Positions 25 through 45,583 of a DNA stretch of 45,583 bases are shown piece by piece. The DNA comes from Clostridia bacterium. GTDB lineage: Bacteria > Bacillota > Clostridia > Christensenellales > Aristaeellaceae. Positions within the stretch are counted from its first letter, which is position 1. Every line of letters begins with the position of its first letter. The DNA lies in assembly GCA_017512905.1 (NCBI GenBank), contig JAFWEL010000078.1, forward strand, positions 1-45,583. Reading direction: 5' to 3'. The position numbers and the translations under genes were made by a program. A model generated the notes under the pieces. That model did not search any database. It was given only the letters and a program-made list of their open reading frames with translations, and was not told the DNA's origin.

Positions 25-139
25 TTGCAGATTTGCCGCCCGGAAATCGCCTGCGATTTCAGGCAAATCTGAGGAGGATGTATTGAAGGGGGACCTGTCC
101 CCCTTCAAACGGGCGCAAGCCCGCGACAAATCAGAATTT
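25..139. repeat. Left-end nested palindromic repeat (empty version)
   Basis: This block is an inverted copy of the right end of the window (45444-45583). Nested hairpins are visible: CAGATTTGCC (28-37) pairs with GGCAAATCTG (62-71), inside which GAAATCGC (43-50) pairs with GCGATTTC (53-60) around a 2-nt loop. A perfect GAAGGGGGAC hairpin follows at 85-108 and the block closes with CGCGACAAATCAGAATTT (122-139). Compared with the right-end copy it lacks a cassette of about 28 nt in the innermost loop. It probably marks an assembly break in a multicopy repeat. Confidence 0.85.
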
Positions 140-6728: not shown

Positions 6729-7021
6729 TGCAAATACTGATTTGTCGGGCTGATAGCGGAAAAGCAAAGGGTAGTGCAAAGGGAACAGGGAACAGTCAAC
6801 AGGGAACAGGAAAAGCCGCGCACGGAATGTTACCGCTAAGACATAGGATACGTTCCCGCGACGAAAACAAAGCAAGGGATACACCAAAACGCTGTAGCGG
6901 CCCTAAAGGACTAGCTTCGCGTCGCCGCAGCGTTTCGCATGACCTCGGAATGTACGCGGCAGCTGCCATTCCTGTTCCCTGTTCCCTGTTCCCTGTTCCC
7001 TCGTCTCCCCGACAAATCAGC
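6729..7021. repeat. Nested palindromic element between acn and icd
   Basis: Perfect 13-bp outer arms CTGATTTGTCGGG (6737-6749) and CCCGACAAATCAG (7008-7020) enclose tandem GGGAACA units (6781-6810) facing an inverted array of the same unit (6971-7001). In the middle, AAACGCTG (6887-6894) and CAGCGTTT (6928-6935) flank a copy of the constant cassette (6901-6925). The right outer arm contains the aconitase stop codon. No credible ORF is present. It has the shape of a MITE-like non-autonomous element. Confidence 0.8.
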
Positions 7022-8942
7022 CTTTCGCCGTATACGCCAGCAGCCCGCCCGCCTTCAGCATATCCTTCTGCCGTTCGGTAAAATCGCAGGCGAGATCGAA
7101 CCTCTTGCCGGTGGTCAGGTCGGTCAACTGGATGCTGCCCTGATCCATACCCTTGTGGATGTTCCGAAGGACCAGGCGGTCGCCCTGGGCAACTTCGTCG
7201 TAGTCCGCCGGGTTTTTGAAGGTCAACGGCAGTATGCCGGCGTTGATCAGGTTCGCCACGTGGATGCGGGCGAAGCTCTTGGCGATCACGGCCCGAACGC
7301 CCAGGTACAGCGGCACCAGCGCCGCGTGCTCCCGGGACGAGCCCTGGCCGTAGTTGTCGCCGCCCACGACGACGCTCTCCCCCGCCGCCTTGGCCCGCTC
7401 GGGGAAGGTGGGGTCGCAGACGCCGAAGCAGTACTGGGACAGGTGGGGTATGTTGCTGCGGTAGGGCAGGATCTTCGCTCCGGCGGGCATGATGTGGTCG
7501 GTGGTGATGTTGTCCCCCACCTTCAGCGTCAGTTCCGCCTCGATGGCATCCCCCACGGGCCTGCAATCCGGGAAGGGCTTGATGTTGGGGCCGCGCACCA
7601 CGGCCACGTCCTTCGCCTCCTCGGGGGACGCGGGCATCAGCACACCGGAGTCGTCCAGCCGGAAGTCGGCGGGCATTTCGATGGCAGGCATGTCGCCCAG
7701 CAGCCGCGGGTCGGTGATTTCACCGGTCAGGGCGGCGGCCACGGCGGTCTCCGGGGACACCAGATAGACCCCGGCATCGGCGGTGCCGCTGCGGCCCAGG
7801 AAGTTGCGGTTGAAGGTGCGCAGGGAAACGCCGGCGCTGTTGGGGCTGAAGCCCATGCCGATGCAGGGTCCGCAGGCGCACTCCAGCACCCGCGCGCCGC
7901 TTGAAAGGATGTCGGTCAGCGCGCCCCGTTCGGCCAGCATAGACAGCACCTGGCGGCTGCCGGGGCTGATGGACAGGCTCACCGAGGGACAGATGGTCTT
8001 TCCCTTCAAAAGCGCGGCCACCTTCAGCATGTCCATCAGGCTGGAGTTGGTGCAGGAGCCGATGCAGACCTGGTCCACCTTCGTGCCCTTCAGGCTGGAC
8101 ACCTTCACCACGTTGTCCGGGCTGTGGGGACAGGCGATCAGCGGCTCGAGGGTGGACAGGTCGATGTCGATGACTCGGTCGTACACCGCGTCCGGGTCGC
8201 TGGACAGCTCGCGCCAGGCGTCCTCCCGGCCCTCGGCCTTCAGGAATGCCCTCGTGATTTCGTCGGAGGGGAAGATGGACGTGGTCGCGCCCAGCTCGGT
8301 GCCCATGTTGGTGATGGTGGCCCGCTCGGGCACGGACAGGGTCTTGACGCCCTCGCCGCCCCACTCCATGATGGCCCCCACGCCGCCCTTCACGGACAGT
8401 ATGCGCAATATCTCCAGGCTCACGTCCTTGGCGGTGACGAAGGGACGGAGCTTTCCGGTCAGGTTCACCTTGAACATCCTCGGCATGGCGATGTAGTACG
8501 CGCCGCCGCCCATGGCCACGGCCACGTCCATGCCGCCGGCGCCGAAAGCCAGCATGCCGATGCCGCCGCCGGTGGGTGTGTGGCTGTCGGAGCCGATCAG
8601 CGTCTTGCCGGGCACGCCATAGCGCTCCAGGTGCACCTGGTGGCAGATGCCGTTGCCCGGGCGGGAGAAGCGTATGCCGTGCTTCTTCGCCACGGACTGG
8701 ATATAGCGGTGGTCATCGGCGTTCTCAAAGCCACACTGCAGCGTGTTGTGGTCGATGTAGGCCACGCTCAGCTCGGTGCGCACCCGCTCGATGCCCATGG
8801 TCTCAAATTCCAGGTAGGCCATGGTGCCGGTGGCGTCCTGGGTCAGGGTTTGGTCGATGCGCAGGGCGATCTCGCTACCGGGAGTCATGTCCCCGGAAAC
8901 GAGGTGGTCCCTGATGATCTTCTGTGCGATGGTCATGCCCAT
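7017..8942 (-). CDS. acnA: Aconitate hydratase
   Basis: This 641-residue [4Fe-4S] enzyme interconverts citrate and isocitrate. The cluster cysteines are visible as Cys297 in CIGSCTNSS and Cys357/Cys360 in CACGPCIG. Other signatures are GSDSHTPTGGGIGMLAFGAG (118-137) and the swivel-domain loop GGDNYGQGSSREHAAL. The length fits the short (mitochondrial-like) aconitase type common in Clostridia, rather than the 890-residue type. The ATG at 8942 has AAGGAGGA 9 nt upstream; a second ATG two codons on is possible. It overlaps the context of gntR by one base spacing and is clearly co-translated. The stop codon lies in the arm of a palindromic element. Confidence 0.93.
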   Translation of the reverse strand: MGMTIAQKIIRDHLVSGDMTPGSEIALRIDQTLTQDATGTMAYLEFETMGIERVRTELSVAYIDHNTLQCGFENADDHRYIQSVAKKHGIRFSRPGNGICHQVHLERYGVPGKTLIGSDSHTPTGGGIGMLAFGAGGMDVAVAMGGGAYYIAMPRMFKVNLTGKLRPFVTAKDVSLEILRILSVKGGVGAIMEWGGEGVKTLSVPERATITNMGTELGATTSIFPSDEITRAFLKAEGREDAWRELSSDPDAVYDRVIDIDLSTLEPLIACPHSPDNVVKVSSLKGTKVDQVCIGSCTNSSLMDMLKVAALLKGKTICPSVSLSISPGSRQVLSMLAERGALTDILSSGARVLECACGPCIGMGFSPNSAGVSLRTFNRNFLGRSGTADAGVYLVSPETAVAAALTGEITDPRLLGDMPAIEMPADFRLDDSGVLMPASPEEAKDVAVVRGPNIKPFPDCRPVGDAIEAELTLKVGDNITTDHIMPAGAKILPYRSNIPHLSQYCFGVCDPTFPERAKAAGESVVVGGDNYGQGSSREHAALVPLYLGVRAVIAKSFARIHVANLINAGILPLTFKNPADYDEVAQGDRLVLRNIHKGMDQGSIQLTDLTTGKRFDLACDFTERQKDMLKAGGLLAYTAKG

Positions 8943-12218: not shown

Positions 12219-12292
12219 ATCCCGCCGGGTACGCTGTACAGAAAACGCCACCCATTCGGGTGGCGTTTTCTGTACAGCGTACCCGGCGGGAT
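12219..12292. repeat. Long palindrome built on the tRNA-Arg 3' end
   Basis: Arms of 35 bp around the loop ATTC (12254-12257) form an essentially perfect palindrome. The right arm takes in the last 15 nt of the tRNA gene (T-stem 3' strand, acceptor 3' strand, discriminator). On the minus strand the inner part, GCCACCC-GAAT-GGGTGGC followed by GTTTTCT, is a good rho-independent terminator for the tRNA. Confidence 0.85.
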
Positions 12293-12351
12293 TCGAACCC
12301 ACGGTCTTCAGAGTCGGAGTCTGACGCGATATCCAGCTTCGCTACGGGTAC
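12278..12351 (-). tRNA. tRNA-Arg (anticodon CCG)
   Basis: A complete 74-nt cloverleaf can be folded on the minus strand: acceptor GTACCCG/CGGGTAC, D-stem GCGA/TCGC, anticodon stem TCAGA/TCTGA with loop CTCCGAC (anticodon CCG), a 5-nt variable loop, T-arm GTGGG-TTCGAAT-CCCGC and discriminator G. CCA is not encoded. Confidence 0.95.
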
Positions 12352-21617: not shown

Positions 21618-21629
21618 GGGCAAGGCGGA

Positions 21630-21671
21630 CAAATTCTGATTTGTCGCGCTGCGACAAATCAGAATTTGTTT
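21630..21671. terminator. Repeat hairpin acting as likely fumC terminator
   Basis: CAAATTCTGATTTGTCGC (21630-21647) and its exact reverse complement (21651-21668) form an 18-bp stem with a 3-nt loop, followed by TTTG. It is 12 nt after the fumC stop. The same sequence occurs at 28228-28265 and half copies lie at 122-139 and 45444-45462. Confidence 0.7.
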
Positions 21672-28049: not shown

Positions 28050-28337
28050 GATTCAGCTTCCTTTCCCTGAAGTATTATGCCAGACTCATATTCAATACAT
28101 AAAGATCCTTGGACTTAGCTCAGAATGACAGGCGCGTCGTTGTCCCCCTCAGTGAAGTGTTCACCGAAGGCGTCGCGAAGCACGGGAACGTCTGTATTTC
28201 GATTGAGTGAAAGTCTCCGGTCGTGTGCAAATTCCGATTTGTCGCGTTGCGACAAATCAGAATTTTCCCGCCTGAACATCTACCCATTGAAACAGTATTG
28301 ACTCACATTCCACCGCATGGGGCAGGCGATCCTCGGA
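28050..28337. other. Gene-free stretch with a repeat hairpin
   Basis: No ORF is supported here. Bases 28090-28135 hold GATCCTTGGACTTAGCTCAG, of a dispersed-repeat type. Bases 28228-28265 are a hairpin with arms CAAATTCCGATTTGTCGC and its near-exact complement, the same family as the fumC terminator. It sits 70 nt past the stop of the next upstream minus-strand gene (28338) and could terminate it. Confidence 0.6.
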
Positions 28338-38668: not shown

Positions 38669-38850
38669 TACTCTTCTCTCAGTCTAAAATAACATCAATC
38701 AAGGGCTGCTATTCCGCCGCTGCTGCGTCCGAAAAAATTGACTTGCGTCCTAAAGGACTGGCTTCGCGTCGCCAGCAAGCCTGCGTTTTCATCCTTGCAT
38801 CGGCGAAAAAACATCTCCTTGCTTGATAACATTTTAGATTGAGAATAGTA
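38669..38850. mobile_element. Divergent MITE relative carrying the constant cassette
   Basis: The right end TTTAGATTGAGAATAGTA (38833-38850) matches the 159-bp MITE family, and a degenerate left end (TCAGTCTAAAAT near 38679-38690) faces it. The core is unrelated to the other copies and holds the constant cassette (38747-38774) between arms CTTGC and GCAAG. Confidence 0.6.
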
Positions 38851-45443: not shown

Positions 45444-45583
45444 CAAATTCTGATTTGTCGCGGGCTTGCGCCCGTTTGAAGGGGGACAGGTCCCCCTTCA
45501 ATACATCCTCCTCAGATTTGCCTGAAATCGTCCTAAAGGACTAGCTTCGCGTCGCAAGCGATTTCCGGGCGGCAAATCTGCAA
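45444..45583. repeat. Right-end nested palindromic repeat (filled version)
   Basis: This is the inverted copy of 25-139. Order: CAAATTCTGATTTGTCGCG, the GAAGGGGGAC hairpin, then CAGATTTGCC (45513-45522) pairing with GGCAAATCTG (45571-45580). Inside, GAAATCG (45524-45530) pairs with CGATTTC (45559-45565) and the loop is the 28-nt constant cassette (45531-45558). The window stops at the end of the repeat. Confidence 0.88.

Follow-up and report, generated by a model that had tools for sequence, protein, structure and literature searches.

Small dispersed repeats, SDR1–SDR8, were reportedly described by Elhai and colleagues in 2008, in Genome Res., from Nostoc punctiforme and its relatives. SDRs are 21–27 nt long, non-coding, dispersed in many copies and nested in other repeats, and they are candidates for the smallest mobile elements; SDR4–6 share a secondary structure that is backed by compensatory changes. 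Rickettsia palindromic elements (RPEs) are longer than the unit described here and palindromic. According to PMC4390886, SDR5 enters HIP1 at one precise point, after its third nucleotide and before its fourth, and Di Nocera et al. (2013) place RPEs in frame within protein genes and mention intragenic REPs too.

The window analysed here, 45,583 nt in length, is one whole contig (C113) of the genome G000 (3,531,800 bases in 209 contigs). A sequence-only reading had noticed in it a cassette of about 28 nt, occurring three times in the loops of unrelated hairpins. All three copies were recovered: a 19-mer occurs twice exactly and once with one mismatch, and not at all in 100 dinucleotide shuffles. 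The length had to be corrected, because empty sites are 24 nt, not 28 nt, shorter than filled ones. The exchangeable unit consists of one pyrimidine followed by the 23-mer CCTAAAGGACTAGCTTCGCGTCG, i.e. [C/T]CCTAAAGGACTAGCTTCGCGTCG. The features are as follows.

25..139, minus strand: composite repeat at the left end, in opposite orientation to its copy at the right
43..60, plus strand: unit-free form of the right-end hairpin, GAAATCGC CT GCGATTTC
6887..6894, plus strand: left hairpin arm AAACGCTG, pairs with CAGCGTTT
6901..6924, plus strand: 24-nt unit, C plus the 23-mer, exact consensus
6928..6935, plus strand: right hairpin arm CAGCGTTT, pairs with AAACGCTG
38742..38746, plus strand: left arm CTTGC, of a repeat family with 1–3 units in other G000 copies
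38748..38771, plus strand: 24-nt unit, T plus the 23-mer, one mismatch (A12G)
38775..38779, plus strand: right arm GCAAG
45445..45583, plus strand: right-end copy of the composite repeat, with the unit
45524..45530, plus strand: left arm GAAATCG
45531..45554, plus strand: 24-nt unit, T plus the 23-mer, exact consensus, inside the right-end repeat
45559..45565, plus strand: right arm CGATTTC

The three differing arm pairs that had been proposed to flank the unit were found, starting at positions 6887/6928, 38742/38775 and 45524/45559, as was the empty hairpin with only CT between its arms. The two window ends are indeed copies of one repeat, in inverted orientation, with 86 nt fully identical and 32 nt at 97% identity, and a unit-free repeat matching 43–60 also occurs in L054 of G000 and in L033 and L169 of G018. 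The unit at 6901 has a counterpart with matching flanks in the congener G010 (L105, 89% over 759 columns), and the CTTGC/GCAAG family includes a member, L062, with unit-free copies in L161 and L169. The GTCC-TTTA-GGAC mini-hairpin that the cassette was said to carry can be formed in two of the three window copies, but requires a flanking GT that lies outside the unit. On its own the unit folds as DNA no better than its shuffled versions (best −0.1 kcal/mol), a stable hairpin inside it is not supported, and positions 13 and 19 co-vary weakly, being changed together in three of 44 distinct variants with the pair kept in all three. There are no terminal inverted repeats within the 24 nt, and Rfam covariance models gave no match at the unit, their sole match in the window being a tRNA at 12278–12351.

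These properties place the unit beside several known systems. Like the GTAG/CGTC REPs and REPINs (RAYT), it is small, dispersed, devoid of an enzyme of its own and in part intragenic; moreover, its last letters are CGTCG, and it can lie within hairpins of REP type. However, CGTC REPs are described as having an 8–9 bp stem and a CCA-like tail, whereas the unit has no stable stem and, unlike REPs, is itself the thing that is inserted into hairpins. The MITE hallmarks, i.e. terminal inverted repeats and a target-site duplication, are not those of the unit, and the MITEs of Thiomargarita are larger.

Copies with up to two mismatches number 164 in G000, against 0 in the control, and 132 in G010, the other 26 congeners listed containing 0–2. 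They occupy at least 153 distinct contexts (88 in G000, 58 in G010 and seven in five other congeners). The unit stands singly or in head-to-tail rows: outside viral contigs, 162 of 172 contexts hold a single unit, and the rows have a 24-nt period. The row at G000:C203, for example, comprises three units, and several G010 places have at least four. In its rows and its variation in copy number it resembles VNTR tandem repeats; unlike these, it is scattered among unrelated places and mostly stands alone there.

The unit is gained as a precise 24 nt or n × 24 nt block, mostly without a recognizable target duplication. A search with 14-nt anchors on each side for flanks with no unit or with less of it (1–27 nt for single units) returned 126 matches, representing 53 distinct filled/matching pairs. 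The net gain was exactly 24 nt per unit in 43 of these, which come from 18 filled contexts, a single context (L060) supplying 14 of the 43. Of the other ten, five come from viral contig L306, and in these the counterpart's filling differs and is shorter by 18 nt. In three the counterpart is itself a filled copy, one lies within a row, and the last shows a difference of 23 nt. Unit-free counterparts were found even on the same contig stretch, for example in L200 and L224. The added base is usually a pyrimidine to the left of the 23-mer (window ends, L029 and the histidine-kinase site), and in the VWA-like gene it stands to the right; some empty copies differ at the base adjoining the insertion. 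A fixed-length target-site duplication, considered at 1 nt (C) and 3 nt, was rejected as inconsistent across the informative pairs, and there is at most an ambiguous 1-nt repeat of C beside the net 24-nt gain. The filled/empty pairs support the proposal of a discrete exchangeable unit, and the outcome that would have made it just part of a larger repeat, the same wide flanks throughout or no empty sites, did not materialize: the flanks vary and empty sites occur. A longer insert was also observed in a G010 gene (L102:1245-1354), approximately 110 nt long and containing a pair of units plus a further hairpin; it is absent from several congeners and has a 4-nt flank overlap that could be a target duplication.

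Units in G010 also lie within open reading frames, where they are tolerated when in an open frame, adding 8 residues. When the consensus is translated in all six frames, stops are absent from just two, which read PKGLASRR and RREASPLG. We compared orthologs for eight genes with ten insertions, namely guaA, an FGE-like gene, a VWA-like/DUF2201 gene, an acyl-ACP thioesterase, an alpha-galactosidase-like gene, a gene for a protein with a sub-threshold solute-binding match, a glycosyl-hydrolase-2-like gene (three insertions) and a NudC-like gene of G000. One of the two stop-free frames is used by all but one of the ten insertions. The exception, a row of units in the glycosyl-hydrolase gene, is read as GDAKLVLQ, a frame that is open because the units of this row have the CCTGAAGG/CCCGAAGG form, by which a stop is removed. 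Of the 11 orthologous guaA loci, from 10 genomes, all lack exactly 24 nt except L316, which aligned untidily, and the VWA-like gene shows a clean 24-nt gap in three of six orthologs. At the thioesterase site there are four units in G010, one in G000 (L336) and none in G008 (L348), the others being untidy, and the NudC-like gene has a clean 48-nt gap in two of five orthologs. A net 24 nt was found in the FGE-like gene (L162, L163 and L164) and in L108 against its one ortholog. At L113, L117 and the three L121 sites the relatives are without units and the alignments are untidy; out of the nine in-gene G010 sites followed up, these three loci yielded untidy alignments only. For the gene sites, an explanation by a larger repeat only was rejected, as the orthologs differ by just 24 nt.

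At the protein level, a Pfam domain spans the insert in three of ten proteins scanned (FGE-sulfatase, DUF2201 and Melibiase_C), and the guaA insert borders GMP_synt_C; the entry of the unit into genes such as guaA in frame thus gives proteins 8-residue peptide inserts. The histidine-kinase site of G010 (L102:5876-5907) has 24 nt more than L180 and L181, and the frame there makes a stop. This gene is probably a pseudogene, since approximately 1 kb is missing relative to four relatives and the unit stands at that place. In-frame insertion into protein genes is shared with RPEs; unlike RPEs, the unit measures 24 nt, is not palindromic and has no stable fold.

The preferred site is of the form YG^C(A/G), often at the 5′ stem–loop junction of a hairpin. 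Among 92 non-redundant sites, position −1 is C in 81 and T in 11, −2 is G in 64 and −3 is C in 37 or T in 30, and to the right +1 is C in 71, +2 is A in 52 and +3 is A in 45 or G in 32, the flanks being of even composition; YG^C (G at −2, a pyrimidine at −1 and C at +1) fits 49 of the 92. Hairpins were scored where a stem of at least 5 ends right at the insertion, a loop to the right defining a 5′ junction and a loop to the left a 3′ junction. Of the 93 sites, 14 showed a 5′ junction, where 500 shuffles gave 1.1 on average and never more than 6; two showed a 3′ junction, against 0.9 expected. The enrichment comes from the GTDB sites (12 of 55 against 0.6), whereas in G000 and G010 together it is not significant (two of 36 against 0.7, with a shuffle maximum of 4); under a looser test the figures were 10 of 54 (1.4 expected) for GTDB, three of 25 (1.1 expected) for G010 and two of 13 (0.5 expected) for G000. 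Hairpins are a preferred but minor target, and the signal stems from other genomes and not from the genus of the window. Entry into hairpin loops, as proposed by the sequence-only reading, is supported for the pooled set but is too narrow a description: the unit also enters protein genes and forms tandem rows, and most sites lie outside strong hairpins.

Among 60 relatives, eight had a match to the unit, namely G000, G010 and six congeners with one or two, and among 200 genomes of the family seven matched at up to three mismatches. Outside the genus, the family contributed one exact copy, in another genus (G228, L132:1501-1523), and two matches with three mismatches; the reversed control, too, matches at that level. 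Among 84,980 species genomes the exact 23-mer occurs in at least 104 stretches, and the matches listed include Pleurocapsales-type cyanobacteria (Hyella, Xenococcus, Pleurocapsa and Myxosarcina), Negativicutes (Anaerovibrio and Selenomonas), Lachnospiraceae, other Clostridia and one Akkermansia assembly. Copy counts for 37 of these genomes range from 1 to 73, exceeding one in 30 of the 37, and the reversed-pattern control gave none. The 73 copies of G263 (RUG12455) belong mostly to a single subfamily in which a loop letter is altered, CTAGCTGCGCG, and which is likely to be a separate burst. A survey of 146 cyanobacterial genomes gave a match in two only, the centre genome, Hyella, and Myxosarcina of its order, and a doubly changed variant, CCTAAAGGACTAACTTCGTGTCG, is common to Hyella, Myxosarcina and G010.

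Many genomes of the survey are metagenome assemblies, but the unit is also present in the cultured strains Anaerovibrio lipolyticus DSM 3074, Hyella patelloides LEGE 07179 and Chondrocystis sp. NIES-4102. In the deposited complete plasmid3 of Chondrocystis it stands in frame in an IS4-type transposase as eight extra residues, PKGLASRR, the protein otherwise aligning with Nostoc and Planktothrix homologs at 47 and 45% identity; given its presence on a complete plasmid, the unit is not a quirk of metagenome assembly. The same transposase has a second insert relative to these homologs, of 16 residues (L378:1606-1653), which may be another small repeat. As to possible carriers, there were no matches in 50,697 phage records, four IMG/VR contigs contain the unit pattern, and 14 plasmid records match the unit dimer, two from Chondrocystis closely (100 and 95.2%) and the other 12 as partial matches of 80–90%.

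SDRs are the closest known kind. They share with the unit its size class, its many dispersed copies and signs of mobility, which for the unit are its filled and empty sites, and SDR5 also its precise, site-preferring insertion. Unlike SDRs, the unit prefers YG^C and hairpin junctions, has in-frame insertions in genes with unit-free orthologs, is common in its exact sequence to Cyanobacteria and Bacillota, and is present in only two of the 146 cyanobacterial genomes surveyed. We call it a new cross-phylum variant of the SDRs, a comparison made with SDR1–SDR8 by description only. Neither the unit nor its peptides are described in the open-licence PMC papers searched.

The explanation that we consider probable is that of a dispersed insertion unit of 24 nt that reaches new places by copying itself or by being copied, its mobility being read from comparisons of filled and empty sites across genomes. 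It would move by way of a short single-stranded DNA or RNA copy, and this copy may join at an exposed 3′ end, loops and broken ends serving as the putative entry points. The YG of the left flank resembles the unit's own end (..CG), so that a second unit could join the first and rows could form; the acting enzyme may be one of the host. A single-stranded copy at a 3′ end suits the precise gain, the site preference, the one-sided loop preference, the rows and the unit at a deletion. Against this explanation, no enzyme or template was found in the genomes searched. The non-significant hairpin signal in G000 and G010, the lack of a stable fold, the varying side of the added base, the one 23-nt pair, the untidy alignments at L113, L117 and L121 and the many metagenome assemblies also count against it. 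If true, the unit would be among the smallest mobile units known, with no room for separate ends and interior, and the filled, empty and multi-unit alleles in related species, together with the cultured carriers, make the movement of such minute repeats directly testable.

Templated addition in the manner of telomerase, in which a reverse transcriptase or a small-RNA-using polymerase copies a 24–25-nt template onto a 3′ end, once or repeatedly, before the ends are rejoined, strikes us as rather unlikely, despite several observations that agree with it. Rows of exactly 24 nt, a left flank resembling the unit's own end and a C or T, both of which can pair with G, before the 23-mer at 92 of 92 sites would all be expected, as would the histidine-kinase unit of G010, which marks the place of approximately 1 kb more in four relatives. 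RNA intermediates are also said to have been proposed for SDRs by Elhai and colleagues. However, the C or T at −1 may simply be part of the unit, no template RNA was found, the Rfam search of the window yielding a tRNA only, and RVT_1 was missing from five of the 21 unit-bearing genomes searched, including G000 with its 164 copies. The remaining 16, one of which, G258, fell below the cut-off, had a match at E ≤ 0.001, as did one of 13 unit-free congeners. The fullest version, a selfish 24-nt sequence with no transposase of its own, added by template to 3′ ends at hairpin tips and breaks, read through in frame in genes and having crossed unchanged between Cyanobacteria and gut Bacillota, we regard as unlikely.

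A Y1 HUH transposase of the RAYT or IS200/IS605 type acting in trans, as the sequence-only reading had suggested, would treat the unit as a minimal REP-like single-strand substrate, joined without target duplication beside a short recognized sequence and preferably in single-stranded loops. The lack of a recognizable target duplication, the loop preference and the short site preference fit, and a Y1_Tnp match was present in 31 of 39 unit-bearing genomes (two in G000 and three in G010). Eight of the 39 had none, including G263 (73 copies) and G243 (17), although these assemblies may be incomplete, so such an agent is not supported as a requirement. Moreover, Y1 genes are widespread in the genus, being present in 16 of its 28 genomes and also where the unit is lacking, as in G002, G014, G016, G019 and G026, no collected unit was found in the loci around the two Y1 genes of G000 (L049 and L050), and the unit has no strong hairpin; we therefore hold this account to be doubtful. 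As shared partners, both RAYT and reverse transcriptase were rejected, neither being present in every unit-bearing genome.

Equally doubtful is a route that needs no dedicated machinery, in which replication or repair slips or switches template between resident copies. It is in keeping with the differing copy number at one site (4/1/0 at the thioesterase), with the unit at the place of a deletion and with the neighbour-gene survey, in which 3,254 open frames of at least 70 amino acids within 1.5 kb of units formed 325 clusters, the 40 largest of which, inspected by eye, held no mobilizing enzyme common to the groups. Copying from a donor should, however, bring along flanks and varied lengths, whereas the block is 24 nt with differing flanks, and the exact 23-mer in several phyla would be left unexplained. 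That larger repeats spread with a shared 24-nt motif, itself not mobile, is highly improbable, for although many G000 copies sit in one composite repeat, often at contig ends, isolated 24-nt gains occur in unrelated genes and hairpins with unit-free counterparts.

Other repeats were also observed. A larger composite repeat with units inside lies at window positions 6732-7025 and at L102:7147-7531, with ends like AAATACTGATTTGTCG...CGACAAATCAGTATTT plus GGGAACAGG runs, and the matches listed for the L102 stretch fall in G000 and G010. At window positions 12219-12292, an inverted repeat with perfect 35-nt arms around a 4-nt spacer overlaps the end of the tRNA gene at 12278-12351. Positions 21623-21668 and 28228-28273 of the window form an inverted pair of the CAAATTCTGATTTGTCG palindrome, which is frequent in the G000 stretches examined.
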